Shown here: positions 19,901 through 28,962 of the stretch, piece after piece
Numbering within the stretch: the first letter of the stretch is position 1
Layout of the letters: each line of letters opens with the position of its first letter
Origin: Candidatus Thermodiscus eudorianus
GTDB taxonomy: Archaea; Thermoproteota; Thermoprotei_A; Sulfolobales; Acidilobaceae
Direction of reading: 5' to 3'
Assembly: GCA_015521085.1 (NCBI GenBank)
Contig: WAOW01000005.1
Location: 248,001 to 312,000 of the forward strand
DNA: 64,000 bases
Notes under the pieces: generated by a model
What the model was told of the DNA's origin: nothing
The model's database searches: none
The model's input: the letters and a program-made list of their open reading frames with translations, nothing else
Position numbers and translations under genes: made by a program

Positions 19901-20998
19901 ATGAGCAAGGCCGCGGTAGCCGGGATACTGGTGGTCGTAATAATCATCTTAGCCGGCATCGGATACCTATATTATGCCAAGCCGGAGCAGCGGGTCCTGA
20001 AGGTACTCAACTACAGCGAGTACATCGATCCAACGGTGCTAGAAGACTTCGAGAAGGAGTACGGCGTCAAAGTGGTATATGACGAGTATGAGGCCGCCGA
20101 GGAGGCATGGGCCAAGCTAAAGGCCGGAGGAGCTGGGTACGACGTCATAATAACGGCTCACTCCTACGTGGGGCTGGCAAGGCAACAGGGACTCCTCCAC
20201 CCGCTAGACAAGTCGAAGCTGCCCAACCTAGTAAACCTAGACCCACGGATAGCGTCGCACCCGGCGGACCCGGAGCAGAAGTATGCGGTACCCTATATGT
20301 GGGGGACAACCGGTATAGGCTATGTGAAGACGTGCGTCAAGGAGCCGCCCAGGACATGGAAGCAATTCTATAACGCGTCGTATCTTTCACAGTATCCCGG
20401 GAAAGTCTCGTTGCTGAGCGAGTTCTCGGAGACAGTGATGACTGCCATGATAGCCCTCGGCTATGATCCAAGCGTTAGGGAGAACTGGAACGACCAGGTT
20501 ATGAAGCAGGTGGAGAACCTTCTCCTTTCTGTGAAGCCATACATAGTAGGCCTATACGGCGCCTCCCAGTACATGCCGGAGCTCCAGAACGAGCACATAT
20601 GCCTAGCGCTCGCATGGAGCGGCGATATACTTGTTGTCCAGGAAGAGAACCCTAATGTCGAGTTCGTTAACCCGAGTGACGGGGCCCTGTTCTGGGTCGA
20701 TTTCATGGTCATACCAAGGGATGCAAAGCACGTCAACGAGGCCCTGGAGTTCATCAACTTCATGATGCGCCCGGACATAGCGGCTAGAAACGTGAAGGCG
20801 GTCTGGTATGCGTCGGCTCTCAAGAAGAGCCTGATCCTAAAGATAGCCGAGGAAAATAATGACGAGGAGCTACTTGAGATCCTAAACAACCCCCTAGTAT
20901 ACCCACCGCCAGACACCAAACTCATCCCAAGCCCGGTACTAGACGAGGAGATGTCGAGCTACGTAGAGACCATTAGGCTACACGTCATGGGAGGCTAG
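19901..20998 (+). CDS. potD: Spermidine/putrescine-type ABC transporter, substrate-binding protein (PotD-like)
   Basis: 365 residues. An N-terminal hydrophobic anchor (AGILVVVIIILAGIGYLYY) tethers it to the outer face of the membrane. The mature part matches PotD: LKVLNYSEYIDPTVLEDFEKE, LKAGGAGYDVIITAHSYV, YAVPYMWGTTGIGY, and NFMMRPDIAARN. The ligand is likely a polyamine, which these organisms make in long and branched forms, though related proteins bind other cations. It heads a four-gene transporter set: binding protein, ATPase and two permeases. Confidence 0.88.
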   Translation: MSKAAVAGILVVVIIILAGIGYLYYAKPEQRVLKVLNYSEYIDPTVLEDFEKEYGVKVVYDEYEAAEEAWAKLKAGGAGYDVIITAHSYVGLARQQGLLHPLDKSKLPNLVNLDPRIASHPADPEQKYAVPYMWGTTGIGYVKTCVKEPPRTWKQFYNASYLSQYPGKVSLLSEFSETVMTAMIALGYDPSVRENWNDQVMKQVENLLLSVKPYIVGLYGASQYMPELQNEHICLALAWSGDILVVQEENPNVEFVNPSDGALFWVDFMVIPRDAKHVNEALEFINFMMRPDIAARNVKAVWYASALKKSLILKIAEENNDEELLEILNNPLVYPPPDTKLIPSPVLDEEMSSYVETIRLHVMGG

Positions 20999-21075
20999 AG
21001 AGGCTAAAGGTATACTCTTAAAACACCAGTACAACCGCCTCCAAACAACATAGAGGGTGGGCGAGGCCACTGGGA

Positions 21076-22056
21076 TTGCCGGGGGTAGAGGTATACGCGG
21101 AAAAGATAACAAAGACCTATAAGAGGGTCACAGCGTTAAGAGAGGTCACCCTGAAGGCTAGGAGGGGCCACATAACCACGCTCCTCGGCCCCAGTGGCTG
21201 CGGGAAGACAACACTCCTAAAAGTGATAGCGGGCCTCGAAAAACCAACCAGTGGAAAGATCTACTTCGACGGCGAAGACGTCACGAGCCAGCCGCCCGAG
21301 AAGAGGAACATAGGCTTCGTATTCCAGGACCTAGCACTGTTCCCCCATCTAAACGTGTATGAGAACATAGCCTTCGGGCTGAGAATAAGGCGTTATAGCG
21401 ATGCCGAGATAAAGAGACGGGTATATGATACACTAGAGCTAGTGGGGCTTGACCCCGGGGAGTTCGCGTCCCGGAGAATAAACGAGCTCAGCGGCGGGCA
21501 GCAGCAGAGGGTCGCCCTGGCCAGGGCACTAGTGATAGAGCCAGCAGTCCTATTGCTAGACGAGCCCTTCGCCCACCTAGACTACAAGATAAAACAGAGG
21601 CTACTCCTCGAATTGAAGAGGATCCAGAGGGAGACGATGACCACAGTAATCTACGTTACACACGATCAAAACGAGGCAATGGCTGTAAGCCACGAGATAG
21701 CCGTTATGAGGGATGGCATGATACTACAGGTGGGGGCGCCAGAGGAGGTATATGAGAGTCCGCGGTCGGCTTTCGTAGCTTCCTTCTTCGGCGAGGCGAA
21801 TGTCCTGCCCCTAGGTGATGGAAGGTTCCTCGTTGTAAGGCCGGAGCGCGTGAAAGTGAACCCGGAGCGGGCCGACGTCGAATACGAGGGCGTCGTGGAG
21901 GATGTCATATTCCAGGGCCCGCTCCTGCGGCTAGAGGTGAGAGTCAACGGGAAGATGATTAAGGTAATCATGCCCAGGAATGGCGGCCGGTTCAAGCCAG
22001 GCGCCCAAGTAAGGGTGGGATGGCGCCTGGACGATGCCAGGGTGGTAAGCGAGTGA
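21076..22056 (+). CDS. potA: Spermidine/putrescine-type ABC transporter ATPase (PotA-like)
   Basis: 326 residues. ABC motifs in order: Walker A GPSGCGKTT, Q-loop FQDLALFPHLNVYEN, signature LSGGQQQRV, Walker B LLLDEPFAHLD and the H-loop THDQNEAMA. A C-terminal TOBE-like regulatory domain follows (residues about 235-326). The TTG start at 21076 fits; the 77-nt gap from the binding-protein gene carries TCTTAAAAC, perhaps an internal promoter. The stop overlaps the GTG of the next permease as GTGA. Confidence 0.93.
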   Translation: MPGVEVYAEKITKTYKRVTALREVTLKARRGHITTLLGPSGCGKTTLLKVIAGLEKPTSGKIYFDGEDVTSQPPEKRNIGFVFQDLALFPHLNVYENIAFGLRIRRYSDAEIKRRVYDTLELVGLDPGEFASRRINELSGGQQQRVALARALVIEPAVLLLDEPFAHLDYKIKQRLLLELKRIQRETMTTVIYVTHDQNEAMAVSHEIAVMRDGMILQVGAPEEVYESPRSAFVASFFGEANVLPLGDGRFLVVRPERVKVNPERADVEYEGVVEDVIFQGPLLRLEVRVNGKMIKVIMPRNGGRFKPGAQVRVGWRLDDARVVSE

Positions 22057-22817
22057 AACCCTCCCTGGCAATCATACCGCTACTCATCTTCCTCCTCGTA
22101 TTCTTCTACGCGCCTTTCGCTATACTGGCTTATCAGAGCTTCACGGGAGTGGGCGGAGGGCTAACCCTGGAGAACTACTTGGCTATAGTGAGGGATCCCT
22201 CCTATACGAGGATAGTATTCTATAGTATAATGATCGCCTCCGAGACAACGCTCGTAACCCTAGCCCTTGCATACCCCGTGGCATACTATGTGGCAAAGGT
22301 GTCTACCGGGCGGGAGAAGATACTCTTGCTAGCGCTCCTACTAACCCCCTTCTGGGTAGACGTGTTGCTCCGATCCCTTGCGATCAAGACAGTGATATAC
22401 ACGATAGGCTTGAAGGAGGGGTTCCATGCTATGATGCTAGGCATGATCTATGAGTACTTCCCTATAATGCTCCTCCCCTTGTTCGCCTCGCTATCAAGAA
22501 TACCAGACAACGTGCTAGAGGCCGCTAGGGTCCTAGGCGCATCGACTAGAGACCTCGTATCAAGGGTGGTAATCCCCTTAACACTGCCGGGGATAATCGC
22601 CGGGTCACTCCTAGTACTGCTAATGTCTATGACCGAGTTCGTCATACCAACACTCCTCGGAGGGAAGTCCGGGTTCACCGTTGGAAGCCTCATCTACTAT
22701 CTCTTCCTAAGCGGGGGCATGTGGGGCGTGGGCGCTGCCCTCGCAGTAGTAATAACGCTGGCTCTCATGGTAGCCGCGTTTGCCGTTGCTAGGAGGACGG
22801 GGGAGGATATGCTATGA
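22053..22817 (+). CDS. potB: Spermidine/putrescine-type ABC permease 1 (PotB-like)
   Basis: About 254 residues with six membrane helices. The cytoplasmic EAA loop reads EAARVLGASTRDLVSRVVIPLTLPG. I chose the GTG at 22053 because it makes a GTGA overlap with the ATPase stop and starts at KPSLAIIPLLIF, where the first helix begins; a reading from 22020 would add eleven polar residues inside the ATPase gene. It overlaps the next permease by ATGA. Together the two permeases form the channel of the transporter. Confidence 0.9.
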   Translation: MKPSLAIIPLLIFLLVFFYAPFAILAYQSFTGVGGGLTLENYLAIVRDPSYTRIVFYSIMIASETTLVTLALAYPVAYYVAKVSTGREKILLLALLLTPFWVDVLLRSLAIKTVIYTIGLKEGFHAMMLGMIYEYFPIMLLPLFASLSRIPDNVLEAARVLGASTRDLVSRVVIPLTLPGIIAGSLLVLLMSMTEFVIPTLLGGKSGFTVGSLIYYLFLSGGMWGVGAALAVVITLALMVAAFAVARRTGEDML

Positions 22818-23587
22818 GGATCCTCAAATACTACACGTATGCCGTTATCACGCTCCTCTATATACCGATCATCGTCATGGCGGTATACAGTTTCGACGAC
22901 AGCAAATTCTTCGGGACATGGAAGGGGTTCACCGTGAAATGGTACCTCCAGCTCCTCCACGACACAGAGGCTTGGATAGCCTTCAAGAACAGCATAGTCG
23001 TGGCGGTAGCCAGTGCACTGATATCTACTGCCATAGCACTCCCAGCGGCCCTAGCCTCCAGGAGGGAGGATAGAGACCTGGTATCGCTCCTCATATACCC
23101 CCCGGTGATAATCCCCGAGATAACCGAGGCAGTATCCCTGATGCTCCTCTTCCTCTACCTGGGTTTCCCCCTGGGCCTTGTCAGCGTGTTGATAGGTCAT
23201 ACAGCCTTCAACGTCGCCTACGCCTATATAGCGCTGTCGCCTGTGGGGAGTAAGGGTTCTCGTCTGGCCACGGCGGCGAGGACTCTCGGAGCCGACAAGC
23301 TCACGGCGTTTCTAAAGGTGACTATACCCGTTTCCATGCCGGGGATAATAGCGGCTCTGGGGCTAGCCTTTATGATGAGCTTCACGGACTTCACGAAGAC
23401 GCTTTTCACTAAGGGCCCTGGGTTTGAGACCCTGCCTATCTTGGTCTGGAATAGGGCTAGGAGGCCTGGGTTAAACGACTATTCTAGCCAGCCGGCTATA
23501 GCGGCTCTAGCAACTATACTCGTCGTCCTAAGTATATCGGTAGCGTTAGCCTATACTCTATGCGAGTTGAAGCGGTCCAAGGGTTGA
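22814..23587 (+). CDS. potC: Spermidine/putrescine-type ABC permease 2 (PotC-like)
   Basis: 257 residues, six membrane helices; EAA loop ATAARTLGADKLTAFLKVTIPVSMPG. The start codon overlaps the stop of the previous permease by 4 nt (ATGA), showing translational coupling. It closes the transporter operon; the next gene, a crotonase, has its own TATA box. Composition and codon use are as in the other three genes, so there is no sign of recent transfer. Confidence 0.9.
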   Translation: MRILKYYTYAVITLLYIPIIVMAVYSFDDSKFFGTWKGFTVKWYLQLLHDTEAWIAFKNSIVVAVASALISTAIALPAALASRREDRDLVSLLIYPPVIIPEITEAVSLMLLFLYLGFPLGLVSVLIGHTAFNVAYAYIALSPVGSKGSRLATAARTLGADKLTAFLKVTIPVSMPGIIAALGLAFMMSFTDFTKTLFTKGPGFETLPILVWNRARRPGLNDYSSQPAIAALATILVVLSISVALAYTLCELKRSKG

Positions 23588-24493: not shown

Positions 24494-26638
24494 TTAGCCT
24501 TTTTTGAATGCCTTTGGGAATCCCTTCACTAGATAATACACTATCCAGAGTATGGCCAGTCCAGCTATCACGTCACCGACCAGTCTAGCCCATATAATGT
24601 GCTGCATAGTCGGCTGGGTCCATATGCCAGCGAGCTTCCCGTCTGGAGTCACGAGGCTCTTGATATACCAGTATCCCAGCTGGCTTCCTGCGTCGAACTG
24701 CTTGTACATCATTACTCCAAGGCTCAGCAGTACCTGGAGGTAGAAGCCTACCGCGGTTATAACTACGGCCTTCCTTATATTCGGCAGGGCCTCGACCGGT
24801 ATCCCGCCGGCCAACACGAAGGCTATGACCCACATCAGCATGGTCGGCACTCCGTAGGCTAGGGGCATTGCTAGGTGTGCGTGGACCATTGTTGCCTGTG
24901 AGCCGTGTAGGTAGTAGTTTACTATTGGCATGTTGATTAGCCCGGCGCCGAAGGCCACGACGCCGATGGCCCCTCCTAGCGCCGCGACTAGCGTGAAGGT
25001 TAGGACTGTCTTCTGTATCTCGTTTTGTATCTCGCCCCTCTTCCACAGTACTATGGCGTATGCTATGACGAATCCTATGGGGAGTACCTCTAGAGTAGAT
25101 ATCGCGGCTCCTATATACATCCAGAAGGTGGGTTCTCCTCCCCAGTAGTAGTGGTGTGCCGTGCCTATCATACCGGTCGCTATCTCTAGGGTAGCGTCTA
25201 GACCGGCAACGGCTACTGCTAGCCTAGGCGGTACCATGCCGGTTATCACTAGCAGTATCAGTAGTATCGGTATCACTATCGCCGGCCAGAACCCTTCCAC
25301 GAAGGCGTGTATAGTTATCCACCTAAAGTACTCGTCCATGGTGAAGTTAGTCCATGGCTTGACGATTGGTAGCGCGCCTATGAAGGCTCCGAAGGCGGTG
25401 CCGCCTAGCCCGATTGAGAGTATCTTGAGTAGGGCGTTGAAGGGATACTGGTTCTGCTTGGCTACCTTGTAGGTTGTTACAGCCAGGTAGCCGACGAGGC
25501 CCGCTATAAGGAGTAGCCACACGGTTCCGAGGCTGACGACTGGCCTGCCCTGGCTGCCGAAGAGGAACCATAGGGAGTCCGGCATCTTGCCCAGGTAGCT
25601 GCTCCATAGACCTAGTAGTCCTAGTATCGCTACGAGGCCTCCAGCCAGCAGTATGGTTAGGGACTGCTGCTTGGTTATCTTGAGGCCGAAGTAGGGTAGG
25701 ACGAATAGTGCGAAGCTGACCCAGGTCACGGCGATCCAGAGTATCGCCAGGTTATAGTGTAGCCCTCTGGCTACGTTGAAGGGCAGTAGATGGCTTAGGT
25801 CTATGCCGTAGAGCTCGGGCTCTGCGTATAGGTGCATCATGTAGCCTCCCAGTAGCCCCTGCACGATCAAGCCGAGGGCCGCTAGGAGCATTCCGAGCAG
25901 TGCAACCCTCTGAGTTGGTGTTGGTTCTGGGAGGCTGACGGTTATCCTCTCGTCCCTCCAGTAGTCTATGAACTTTATTATAATGTAGCCAGCTATCGGC
26001 ATTATCACTAGTAGTAGCACGAATATCGTGATCCAAGTCGCCCTGGTCGCGTCTATAGTCTGCTCCACTAGGCCGGGAGTGTAGGGGAACCCGTTCGTGT
26101 ATCCCTTCATGGCGATCAGGGCTGTCCAGGTGAAATAGGCCGTTATCTTCGATATGTCCTCGTCTGTGAGCAGCTTGTCCAGCGCTAGTCTATCATTGAC
26201 GTACTCGTCTCTCCACAGCGATTTATAGTAGTTGTAGAGCTTCTCGTAGGCCCTAGCGACCTCGTCTCCGACGACAAAGGTCACAGGGCTGTGCTTCTCT
26301 ATCGATACGAGCTCGTTTCCAGGCTTACCATTGGCCTCCATTTGTATGAATTTCAGCGCGTAGGCTGTATAGTCGGTCCCGAAATACCCGCCGAATCCGA
26401 GCACGCTTCCATAATCTTGTATGCCGTATCTCTGTACCAGGTACTTGCCCTCTATGATATCGTCCTTGGTGAAGAGGACCGTGCCGTCGCTTGTAACAAC
26501 GCTCTCGGGGATCGGCGGTAGGTTCTGGAAGGTATAGGCGGCTGCAGCGAAATAGAACACGTAGACTAGTATAGCTACTATCAGGACGAGGCGTGCCCAC
26601 CCATTATTCCCATTTGAGGCCAAGTAACTCCACCCCAT
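24494..26638 (-). CDS. norZ: Quinol-dependent nitric oxide reductase (qNOR / NorZ)
   Basis: 714 residues with about 14 membrane helices. It reduces NO to N2O with quinol electrons, in the membrane. The N-terminal 220 residues are the extra qNOR part: helix 1, then a hydrophilic domain without a haem c motif (no CxxCH). The haem-copper oxidase core follows, with MDEYFRWITIHAFVEGFWPA, IGTAHHYYWGGEP, TLEVLPIGF and SQATMVHAHLAMPLAYG carrying the haem and FeB histidines. The ATG at 26638 is 165 bp from a divergent HTH regulator, with a 23-bp palindrome in between. Confidence 0.93.
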   Translation of the reverse strand: MGWSYLASNGNNGWARLVLIVAILVYVFYFAAAAYTFQNLPPIPESVVTSDGTVLFTKDDIIEGKYLVQRYGIQDYGSVLGFGGYFGTDYTAYALKFIQMEANGKPGNELVSIEKHSPVTFVVGDEVARAYEKLYNYYKSLWRDEYVNDRLALDKLLTDEDISKITAYFTWTALIAMKGYTNGFPYTPGLVEQTIDATRATWITIFVLLLVIMPIAGYIIIKFIDYWRDERITVSLPEPTPTQRVALLGMLLAALGLIVQGLLGGYMMHLYAEPELYGIDLSHLLPFNVARGLHYNLAILWIAVTWVSFALFVLPYFGLKITKQQSLTILLAGGLVAILGLLGLWSSYLGKMPDSLWFLFGSQGRPVVSLGTVWLLLIAGLVGYLAVTTYKVAKQNQYPFNALLKILSIGLGGTAFGAFIGALPIVKPWTNFTMDEYFRWITIHAFVEGFWPAIVIPILLILLVITGMVPPRLAVAVAGLDATLEIATGMIGTAHHYYWGGEPTFWMYIGAAISTLEVLPIGFVIAYAIVLWKRGEIQNEIQKTVLTFTLVAALGGAIGVVAFGAGLINMPIVNYYLHGSQATMVHAHLAMPLAYGVPTMLMWVIAFVLAGGIPVEALPNIRKAVVITAVGFYLQVLLSLGVMMYKQFDAGSQLGYWYIKSLVTPDGKLAGIWTQPTMQHIIWARLVGDVIAGLAILWIVYYLVKGFPKAFKKG

Positions 26639-26689
26639 GGAAGCCGCTTGCTCATTGAAGTGATGTGGGGCTATGGGACTACTAGAGAC

Positions 26690-26712
26690 AACGGATAACC
26701 AGGTTAACCGTT
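26690..26712. promoter_or_regulatory. 23-bp palindromic operator between norZ and the HTH regulator
   Basis: AACGGATAACC-A-GGTTAACCGTT: the arms match at 10 of 11 positions. On the minus strand the site lies about 25 bp downstream of GTATATAAAA (26733-26742), the likely norZ TATA box, so it covers the expected norZ start and suits a repressor. For the plus-strand regulator (TATA-like CCTTAAATAAAGG, 26755-26767) it is an upstream site. Confidence 0.7.
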
Positions 26713-26732
26713 CCCCAGCCGGAGACCGGGAG

Positions 26733-26767
26733 TTTTATATACAACTATATTCCACCTTAAATAAAGG
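26733..26767. promoter_or_regulatory. Divergent core promoters of norZ and the HTH regulator
   Basis: TTTTATATAC (26733-26742), read on the minus strand as GTATATAAAA, is placed to serve norZ. CCTTAAATAAAGG (26755-26767) is placed to serve the plus-strand regulator, whose ATG at 26804 is preceded by GGAGGG near 26787. Confidence 0.5.
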
Positions 26768-26803
26768 CTGGCAAACCAGTTCCTCTGGAGGGTATATGAG
26801 TTT

Positions 26804-27286
26804 ATGAAGCTGCTCAAGGTGACTATGAAGCAGTGCGACCTGCTCCGTCAGTTGAAGCCAGACGAGTACCTAGGCACTAGAATAGGCACATGCCCGGCCA
26901 AGATCGAGCACATCGTAGTGTCGAATCGACGGGTACACGTGTTGAAGAAGAGCTGTGACGACTGTGTCCTCGCGAAGCTCATGCGTGCTACACACGTCAT
27001 AGGACAACCCGTTATAAGAGGCGACGAGACTATAGTCTTCATAGTGAGAGACAACAAGTATACCAGGAGGCTCCTCAAGGAGCATAGCTATGAGATAGTC
27101 GATGTCGGCGAGGTGGACTATAGGGAGGTTTATTTGACCCTACGGCAGAAGGAGGCTCTGCGCATGCTGGCTAATGGCGAGGCCTCTAACATATCGAGGC
27201 TAGCTAGAAAGCTTGGAATATCAAAGCCAGCGGCCCTGAAGCTGGTTAAGAGCAGTATTAAGAAGCTGGCCAGCAAGTACTCTTAG
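26804..27286 (+). CDS. Cysteine-containing HTH regulator (Bat/HTH_10-like), divergent from norZ
   Basis: 160 residues. The C-terminal 50 residues form a helix-turn-helix of the bacterio-opsin-activator type: LTLRQKEALRMLANGE followed by ARKLGISKPAALKLVKSS. The N-terminal domain has four cysteines, C11, C30, C51 and C54 (the last pair as SCDDC), a possible metal, Fe-S or thiol sensor. Haloarchaeal regulators of anaerobic respiration (NarO, DmsR) share this build: N-terminal cysteines plus a Bat-type HTH. Its position next to norZ with a palindrome between suggests it controls NO reduction. Sensing of NO or redox is inference. Its stop overlaps the convergent thioredoxin-like gene by 4 nt. Confidence 0.8.
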   Translation: MKLLKVTMKQCDLLRQLKPDEYLGTRIGTCPAKIEHIVVSNRRVHVLKKSCDDCVLAKLMRATHVIGQPVIRGDETIVFIVRDNKYTRRLLKEHSYEIVDVGEVDYREVYLTLRQKEALRMLANGEASNISRLARKLGISKPAALKLVKSSIKKLASKYS

Positions 27287-27756
27287 TCGAGCTCTTCAGC
27301 GACTGGTATTGGGCACTGGCCTTTTTCCAGGAGATTGGCTAGGAACTCTTCTAAGACCTCTGGAGGCACTAGCCCTACGAGCCTATCCACTTCCCTGCCG
27401 TTGTGGAATGCTATCGTTGTCGGGGTACCCATTATGTATAGCGCTCCTGCCAGTTCGAAGAGGCGTGCGGCGTTTACCTTGAAGAAGTATACTCGGTCTC
27501 CTAGTATAGCGGCGGCCTCCTCCATGAGGGGCTCCATCATCCTGCAGTAGGGGCATGTGGGCGTGTAGAAGAAGCCTATCGCTAGTCTACACGTTGAGAT
27601 GGCCTTCTTGAATTCCTCTATCGTGTTGATTTCGACGAGTTCCTTCCTGGGTTTTATCTTGCAGCACTTCCTTAGCTTCTCTTGTATTAAGAGTTCTTGT
27701 ATGATCTTTTCCCTGGCTTTCTCTAGTACTAGCTCCTCGTCCATCTCGTATTCCAC
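27283..27756 (-). CDS. Thioredoxin-like protein with N-terminal extension
   Basis: 157 residues. A thioredoxin fold with the active site TPTCPYCRMM (C68-P-Y-C71), the cis-proline loop MGTPTTIAF, and an N-terminal charged helix of about 45 residues containing a CC pair (C31-C32). C56 is a further cysteine. The CPYC motif and the extension set it apart from the CGPC thioredoxin at 42589; glutaredoxin-like or protein-disulphide-type activity is likely. It lies between the nor regulator and ferritin and could supply electrons to the peroxiredoxins, which is inference. ATG 27756 or 27744 are possible starts. Confidence 0.8.
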   Translation of the reverse strand: MEYEMDEELVLEKAREKIIQELLIQEKLRKCCKIKPRKELVEINTIEEFKKAISTCRLAIGFFYTPTCPYCRMMEPLMEEAAAILGDRVYFFKVNAARLFELAGALYIMGTPTTIAFHNGREVDRLVGLVPPEVLEEFLANLLEKGQCPIPVAEELD

Positions 27757-27802
27757 CCGGGGTTTGTCTTTTGGCCTCTACTGGCATGCTAGGAAACGCC
27801 CT

Positions 27803-27856
27803 TATATAGGGGCCTATATATCATACATAATATTATTATAGTTTATATAATATACT
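27803..27856. promoter_or_regulatory. AT-rich divergent promoter region of the thioredoxin-like and ferritin genes
   Basis: TATATAGG-GG-CCTATATA (27803-27820) is a perfect 8+2+8 palindrome that contains a TATA box in both directions; on the minus strand CCTATATAAGG suits the thioredoxin-like gene. GTTTATATAATATAC (from about 27841) suits ferritin. The 150-bp region is strikingly AT-rich. No other feature is seen in it. Confidence 0.45.
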
Positions 27857-27908
27857 GTACTAAATGATATATATCGGTGTGATTCACAGGGCCGAAATGT
27901 GAGGAGTC

Positions 27909-28400
27909 TTGATCCCAAAGGAGCTACAGGACGAGTTAAACAAGCAATTAAACAGGGAACTGTACTCGGCGTACCTATACCTCTCAATGGCAGCGTACTT
28001 CGACGACAAAGGCCTCGGCGGGTTCGCCCACTGGATGAAGGTACAGGCCAAGGAGGAGTTGGAGCATGCAATGAAGTTCTACGAATTCATAAACGACCGT
28101 GGAGGCAGGGTGGAGCTATACAAGGTAGACGAGCCCCCTAGGGAGTGGAAGAGCGTGACAGACGTGTTCAGGGAGGCCCTAGAGCACGAGAAGACGATAA
28201 CCAAGCACATAAACGACCTCGTGGATCTGGCTAGGAAGCTCGACGACAAGCCGACGGAGGTATTCCTGCACTGGTTTGTGACGGAGCAGGTAGAAGAGGA
28301 GAAGACCTTCCAGGAGATACTACAGTTATTGGAGTTCAGCGGCGAGACCCCACAGGCCGTGCTCATGTTGAATGCCAGGCTCGGACAGAGGAAGCACTGA
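27909..28400 (+). CDS. Ferritin (non-haem iron storage protein)
   Basis: 163 residues forming the four-helix ferritin subunit. Ferroxidase ligands are visible: the Glu in NRELYSAYLYL, the Glu/His pair in EELEHAMKFYEF, the Glu in ALEHEKTITKHI and the acid cluster in TEQVEEEKTF. It oxidises and stores iron in a 24-mer cage. The start is the TTG at 27909 behind GGAG. It is followed by a T-rich stretch and a peroxiredoxin with its own TATA box, so the two are separate but adjacent oxidative-stress units. Confidence 0.92.
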   Translation: MIPKELQDELNKQLNRELYSAYLYLSMAAYFDDKGLGGFAHWMKVQAKEELEHAMKFYEFINDRGGRVELYKVDEPPREWKSVTDVFREALEHEKTITKHINDLVDLARKLDDKPTEVFLHWFVTEQVEEEKTFQEILQLLEFSGETPQAVLMLNARLGQRKH

Positions 28401-28410
28401 GATAATAAAA

Positions 28411-28429
28411 CAATTTTATATTCTTTTAA
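28411..28429 (+). terminator. T-rich terminator after ferritin
   Basis: CAATTTTATATTCTTTTAA follows the ferritin stop by about 10 nt. The T-tracts fit archaeal intrinsic termination. A TATA-like ACTTATAA for the next gene lies at 28453-28460. Confidence 0.45.
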
Positions 28430-28491
28430 TATAATATATACCCAAATCTAATACTTATAACTACCAGACTTAAAGTAACCGGTGGAACTAC

Positions 28492-28962
28492 GTGGTCGAG
28501 GTAGGCGATATAGCGCCCGACTTCAGGTTGCCGGACGAGAACTTCAACCAGGTCACACTAAAGCAACTCCTAGGAGAAGGCAAGCCAGTCATCCTGGTCT
28601 TCTTCCCAGCAGCCTTCAGCCCCGTCTGCACGGCAGAGCTATGCGCTTTCAGGGACAAGATGGCGAAGCTGGAGAAGGCCAATGCGACAGTCGTGGGGAT
28701 AAGCACCGACAGCCCCTGGTGCCTGAAGGAATTCAAAGCCGCAAACAGGCTACAGTTCCCCTTACTGAGCGACTATAACAGGGAGGTCATCAGGCTGTAT
28801 GGAGTTGTCCACGACGAGATACTAGGGTTGCGCTATCTGGCTAAGAGAGCGGTCTTCATCATAGATGGAGAGGGCAGGGTTGCTTGGAAGTGGGTTAGCG
28901 ACGATCCCAGAGTAGAGCCGGATTACGATGAGGTTATATCGGTGGCGTCGTCTATAGCTTAA
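28492..28962 (+). CDS. Peroxiredoxin, AhpE/Bcp-like, multi-cysteine
   Basis: 156 residues. The peroxidatic cysteine is C46 in FFPAAFSPVCTAELCAF; C51 and C77 are candidates for the resolving residue. The PxxxSPVC form and the CTAELCAFRD sequence distinguish it from the single-cysteine enzyme at 19372. GTG start at 28492 with GGTGG upstream. It probably removes hydrogen peroxide or peroxynitrite in the cytoplasm; the latter would suit the NO reductase nearby, but that is inference. Confidence 0.9.
   Translation: MVEVGDIAPDFRLPDENFNQVTLKQLLGEGKPVILVFFPAAFSPVCTAELCAFRDKMAKLEKANATVVGISTDSPWCLKEFKAANRLQFPLLSDYNREVIRLYGVVHDEILGLRYLAKRAVFIIDGEGRVAWKWVSDDPRVEPDYDEVISVASSIA

Follow-up and report, generated by a model that had tools for sequence, protein, structure and literature searches.

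In the heat-loving archaeon Thermodiscus, the gene for nitric oxide (NO) reductase is divergent from that of a small helix-turn-helix (HTH) protein, and between them lies a palindromic site whose core recurs in the nor promoters of related regulators. We consider it fairly probable that this protein is a local, dedicated repressor of NO reductase, released when NO, or an accompanying redox change, alters a metal or Fe-S site that has three cysteines and one histidine as ligands (3Cys-1His), and the palindrome would probably be the switch that turns NO reductase on when NO appears. Sequence comparison supports the linkage of regulator and reductase, the conservation of the operator, the joint divergence of site and regulator, a repressor-like position of the operator and the invariance of the 3Cys-1His set. 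The features concerned lie in the window, by which we mean the whole 64-kb stretch of DNA analysed:

24494-26638, minus strand: gene for a quinol-type NO reductase (qNOR, norZ) of 714 aa; PF00115, 94 bits; PF22085 (NorB_cytochrome_c-like), 76 bits
26690-26712, no strand: 23-bp palindrome (operator plus outer arms), AACGGATAACC-A-GGTTAACCGTT, with 10 of the 11 arm positions matching
26694-26708, no strand: core operator GATAACCAGGTTAAC, consensus GTTAAC-N3/4-GTTAAC
26733-26742, minus strand: predicted TATA box of the nor promoter; TTTTATATAC reads GTATATAAAA on the minus strand
26804-27286, plus strand: gene for the 160-aa regulator, with an N-terminal 3Cys-1His domain and a C-terminal HTH (from sequence and an AlphaFold2 model)
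26834-26836, plus strand: codon of Cys11, invariant in 31 of 31 family members
26909-26911, plus strand: codon of His36, likewise invariant (31/31)
26954-26965, plus strand: C51-x-x-C54 motif; C51 in 30 and C54 in all of the 31 members
27134-27280, plus strand: HTH region, residues 111-159 (weak MarR, HTH_10 and GerE matches; model)

Linkage of the regulator to nitric oxide reductases

The reductase is of the quinol type: models of the haem-copper catalytic domain (PF00115) and of the fused N-terminal NorC-like domain (PF22085) both score above their cut-offs, the HxxVEG motif is present, and the protein contains HAFVEGFW and TAHHYYWGG, like the other NORs examined. Its identity and the divergent arrangement of the pair, both proposed in an earlier sequence-only reading of this DNA, are confirmed. 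The regulator is followed by thioredoxin-like, ferritin and peroxiredoxin genes (27283-28962) that form an oxidative-stress cluster, and on the far side of nor there is an ABC transporter operon (19901-23587; substrate-binding protein, ATPase and two permeases), apparently of the polyamine type as judged from sequence. No hemerythrin gene was found in the source genome. Since a scan confined to nitrite reductase of the cd1 type found none in 11 of 12 genomes, the source genome included, the NO of Thermodiscus may come from outside or from chemistry.

A search of 229 genomes of the class at E < 1e-30 delimited a core family of 20 members, 18 of which adjoin an NO reductase (14 qNOR and 4 norCB). 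The qNOR gene is divergent in all 14 cases and norCB in three (G193, G181 and G197, the last on a contig with only a norC fragment at its edge), while in G010 norCB lies upstream of the regulator in the same direction. The regulators of G054 and G228 adjoin a divergent hemerythrin gene, with norCB on other contigs. All 20 core regulators occur in genomes with NOR genes (Fisher p = 4e-19, counting G197 as lacking NOR), and among 60 relatives the seven regulators of at least 49% identity, our own included, are all divergent from nor. The two reductase classes were separated by motifs (HAFVEG type in qNOR, HYWVEG in norB, which has a di-haem c subunit as partner; HHYxW was also used), and because both serve as partners, the common factor is NO reduction. 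Linkage across families and to two reductase classes, together with the conserved palindrome described below, thus speaks for the dedicated regulator of NO reductase proposed in the sequence-only reading.

In a sample of the phylum, the family also lies beside nor in the Pyrobaculum-type genomes G279, G314, G265 and G516 and less than 4 kb from it in G374; several further Pyrobaculum-type members are not beside nor. In G279, which we take to be P. aerophilum, a short family member is directly downstream of nor, in an island that also includes a cytochrome-d1 protein, an NnrS-like protein (below cut-off) and a molybdopterin oxidoreductase. A second paralogue there, convergent with the first (L158:8908-9368), has an in-frame TGA and a 107-aa ORF, and is either a pseudogene or a sequence error. 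At another locus (L171:5281-8846, G210) nor is split into two ORFs that flank an opposite 321-aa ORF, as though an insertion had broken up the gene.

Conservation and position of the operator

The palindrome has the position and the 10/11 arm match first ascribed to it, but its shape is at chance level: the window holds eight palindromes with 11-bp arms, one mismatch and spacers of 0-7, against about 6.1 expected in first-order Markov random sequence. Its significance therefore lies in its conservation. Within three mismatches the full sequence matches only itself in the 1.52-Mb genome, and its outer arms, intact on both sides in the source genome, are not kept on both sides in relatives; the conserved unit is not the 23 bp originally described but a core of 15-17 bp, GGTTAACCnGGTTAACC. 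This core is shared by relatives, as the sequence-only reading had suggested should be looked for, and its conservation extends to Pyrobaculum. The 27 promoters linked to short regulators are not all independent, as some of the genomes form close pairs (G003/G004, G017/G089 and G054/G228). GTTAAC-N3/4-GTTAAC is matched at best with no mismatch in 10 of them, one in 10, two in 2 and at least three in 5, so that 22 lie within two mismatches; only 4 of the 336 tiles of 190 bp in the window reach this level, the operator's own tile among them. The motifs were chosen after the promoters had been seen, and shuffle p-values accordingly describe the fit and are no blind test. Better evidence comes from two sites in trans and from the different motif of a sister lineage. 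The norCB genes of G054, on a contig other than that of the regulator, have CTTAACGGTGTTAAC, and nor of P. oguniense, some 66 kb from its regulator, has GTTAACGAGGTTAAC. A palindrome that arose by chance, with the regulator acting at some other place, is thus extremely improbable: repeats of this quality are about as frequent in the window as expected, but the core is kept in otherwise diverged intergenic regions of several families, as well as at two nor genes not linked to the regulator, and a different palindrome occupies the nor promoters of the longer regulators. We rejected a chance origin on the strength of this conservation, although shape alone would have allowed it.

The five promoters that match poorly are those of G181, G197, G182, G183 and G374. 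The norCB subclade (G193, G181 and G197) has GGTTGC-N5-GCAACC in 3/3 promoters with at most one mismatch, the two Pyrodictium genomes (G182 and G183) have common GTAACCGA-n-TCGG(T/A)TAC-like sites, and the G374 promoter has TCTGGTTAACCAGA. The association of distinct palindromes with distinct regulator subclades indicates that site and regulator diverge together, and it is on this co-divergence that we base family-wide recognition, because the operator itself differs in Pyrodictium and in the norCB clade. As for other targets, the source genome has seven further places within 1-2 mismatches of GTTAACCNGGTTAAC, all inside long ORFs, and nor may be the only target of the regulator there. Hemerythrin promoters carry the operator in G054 and G228 and, weakly (two mismatches), in G374; none was found in those of G279, G244, G314 and G079 as read, some starts being uncertain. 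Of the 229 genomes, 65 have exact GTTAAC-N3/4-GTTAAC sites, mostly without the regulator, and the motif alone is therefore no marker of a regulon. One genome without a core regulator (G011:C32:10813-10846, L071) has two adjacent GTTAAC-N4-GTTAAC sites; they fall within a predicted ORF and have a small HTH ORF nearby.

The TATA-like sequence noticed earlier on the minus strand upstream of norZ is borne out, and transcription starts of nor were placed from such sequences. In Thermodiscus (G000, G003 and G004) the TATA-like 8-mer begins 33-36 nt 5' of the operator, which would put the operator at or just past the expected nor start. In three Pyrobaculum-type promoters (G516, G265 and P. oguniense) it begins 12-16 nt before the operator, which would place the latter between TATA and start. 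By the scan used, G033, G088, G083, G189 and several others have no clear TATA box, and some promoters offer two or more candidates. In promoters with a recognisable TATA box the operator is on its 3' side, a position that fits a repressor. The repression of norZ supposed in the sequence-only reading is consistent with this position, from which we infer the repressor role.

The regulator and its longer relatives

All four cysteines first singled out (C11, C30, C51 and C54) are present in the 160-aa ORF, but C30 is not conserved across the family and H36 is invariant instead. Conservation in the 31 members thus replaces the four-cysteine sensor site by C11, H36, C51 and C54 as candidate ligands; C51 is an Asn in one member (G189). 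The AlphaFold2 model (pLDDT 91.8) has an alpha-beta N-domain followed by three C-terminal helices (113-123, 130-137 and 141-159) that would form the HTH. Assignment of this HTH to the Bat/HTH_10 type did not hold, as the window protein scores 17.2 bits against a gathering score of 23.1 for HTH_10 (PF04967). The protein falls short of the cut-off of every Pfam and NCBIfam model, and no PDB fold matches it at E <= 0.001. Searches up to E = 1 with domains of bacterial NO regulators found neither the Rrf2 domain of NsrR, nor the AAA+ sigma-54 activator domain of NorR (the protein has 160 aa), nor the cNMP-binding-like sensor domain of the CRP-FNR proteins DNR and NNR. The protein belongs instead to the short nor-linked regulator family delimited here, having the C..H..CxxC N-domain with HTH, the linkage to NO reductase and GTTAAC-N3/4-GTTAAC in the nor promoter. 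In a tree of the 31 members, a qNOR-rich clade stands apart from a second clade that unites the norCB- and hemerythrin-linked members with three qNOR-linked ones.

Longer regulators of 204-215 aa, above the HTH_10 cut-off, lie beside archaeal nor or hemerythrin genes. Like the window regulator they are divergent from nor and have the C..H..CxxC pattern (C20, H47, C88 and C91, invariant in six sequences), and profile comparison indicates homology from the CxxC through the HTH (97%, E 6.7e-11); unlike it, they pass the HTH_10 cut-off and have a different candidate operator, CCTAA-N4-TTAGG, exact in 6/6 of the nor or hemerythrin-nor promoters that face them. At two loci (L103:7227-8560 in G028 and L173:6192-7488 in G086) hemerythrin precedes nor on the same strand, at distances of about 190 and 75 bp, and CCTAA-N4-TTAGG lies between them and a divergent HTH_10 regulator of 209-215 aa, which makes these a second lineage of nor regulators.

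Proposed mechanism and comparison with known systems

DNA binding, repression, cofactor and signal are what we infer for the regulator. A dimer would bind the two GTTAAC half-sites, which would span the nor transcription start or follow it closely, and would block RNA polymerase. C11, H36, C51 and C54 would hold a metal or Fe-S site that NO, or an accompanying redox change, modifies; the modified regulator would let go of the DNA, so that nor is transcribed until NO has been removed. Sensing of NO through the 3Cys-1His site is suggested by the partners and the residues, and by analogy with bacterial NsrR. Proteomics of Pyrodictium delaneyi found more NOR protein on nitrate than on iron oxide (PMC8105010). 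In P. aerophilum, denitrification genes varied little across conditions (PMC8105010), which would fit weak regulation and counts against the proposed repressor.

Other readings keep the regulator and change its ligand, signal or sign. The 3Cys-1His site could be structural zinc, with the NO signal reaching the regulator otherwise; this seems somewhat unlikely. CxxC with Cys/His is also a common zinc motif, and the NO-reductase partners are the sole point against a zinc site. A different signal (oxygen, redox state or nitrite) acting on the same protein and operator appears unlikely. The CxxC motif is generally known to be capable of redox switching, ferritin, peroxiredoxin and thioredoxin-like genes adjoin the window regulator, and haloarchaeal NarO has been described as an oxygen sensor (PMC11218638), but the family's partners are two NO reductase classes, hemerythrin and NnrS-like genes, and the oxidase-adjacent relatives (G012 and G049) are distant and outside the core family. 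It is quite improbable that the regulator activates nor, as NarO does nar: the rise of NOR on nitrate is compatible with either sign (PMC8105010) and activation is the role described for NarO and DmsR (PMC11218638, PMC10062603), but in nor promoters of both the Thermodiscus and the Pyrobaculum type the operator is on the 3' side of the visible TATA box and thus poorly placed for activation.

Beyond the dedicated repressor, we propose tentatively, and with more doubt than confidence, that these proteins represent an archaeal class of NO-sensing repressors, with 3Cys-1His Fe-S or iron sites and neither a curated family name nor a solved structural relative, which together with the longer sister lineage would control NO reductase across the Thermoproteota, each with its own co-evolved operator. 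NO sensing in archaea is poorly known, and our analysis narrows the question to one delimited protein family, four of its residues and a site of 15 bp. Some members of the group can be cultured (Pyrobaculum and Pyrodictium), and the regulator-operator pairs form a natural set whose specificities seem to have changed together.

NsrR is a bacterial NO-sensing Fe-S repressor whose cluster is ligated by cysteines. It would share with the window regulator a small size, an HTH, conserved cysteines and the repression of NO-detoxifying genes; unlike NsrR, the window protein has no detectable Rrf2 domain, a different N-terminal domain and an archaeal core promoter. The sequence-only reading held that such a pair had not been described in crenarchaea, and our literature search, with most subscription papers outside it, found no account of such a regulator there. 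Some caution is in order: Cozen et al. (2009, J Bacteriol) reportedly predicted that P. aerophilum has a transcriptional regulator responsive to NO, possibly of the same family as the short member downstream of nor in G279. A 2008 review noted that the archaeal genomes available at the time lacked the bacterial regulators of nitrate reduction (PMC2483277). The nar, nir, nor and nos promoters of Haloferax mediterranei have in common a semi-palindrome, CGAAYATDKTYG, whose mutation lowers activity and whose regulator is unknown (PMC10062603); its sequence is unrelated to the GTTAAC operator. NarO and DmsR, haloarchaeal regulators of the bacterioopsin-activator type that control anaerobic respiration, were initially thought to have the same build as the window protein. 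By description they too are archaeal HTH regulators of small size that lack PAS and GAF domains, but because they are described as activators (PMC11218638, PMC10062603) the likeness is one of general build, and the window regulator differs further in falling below the HTH_10 cut-off and in its conserved 3Cys-1His set.
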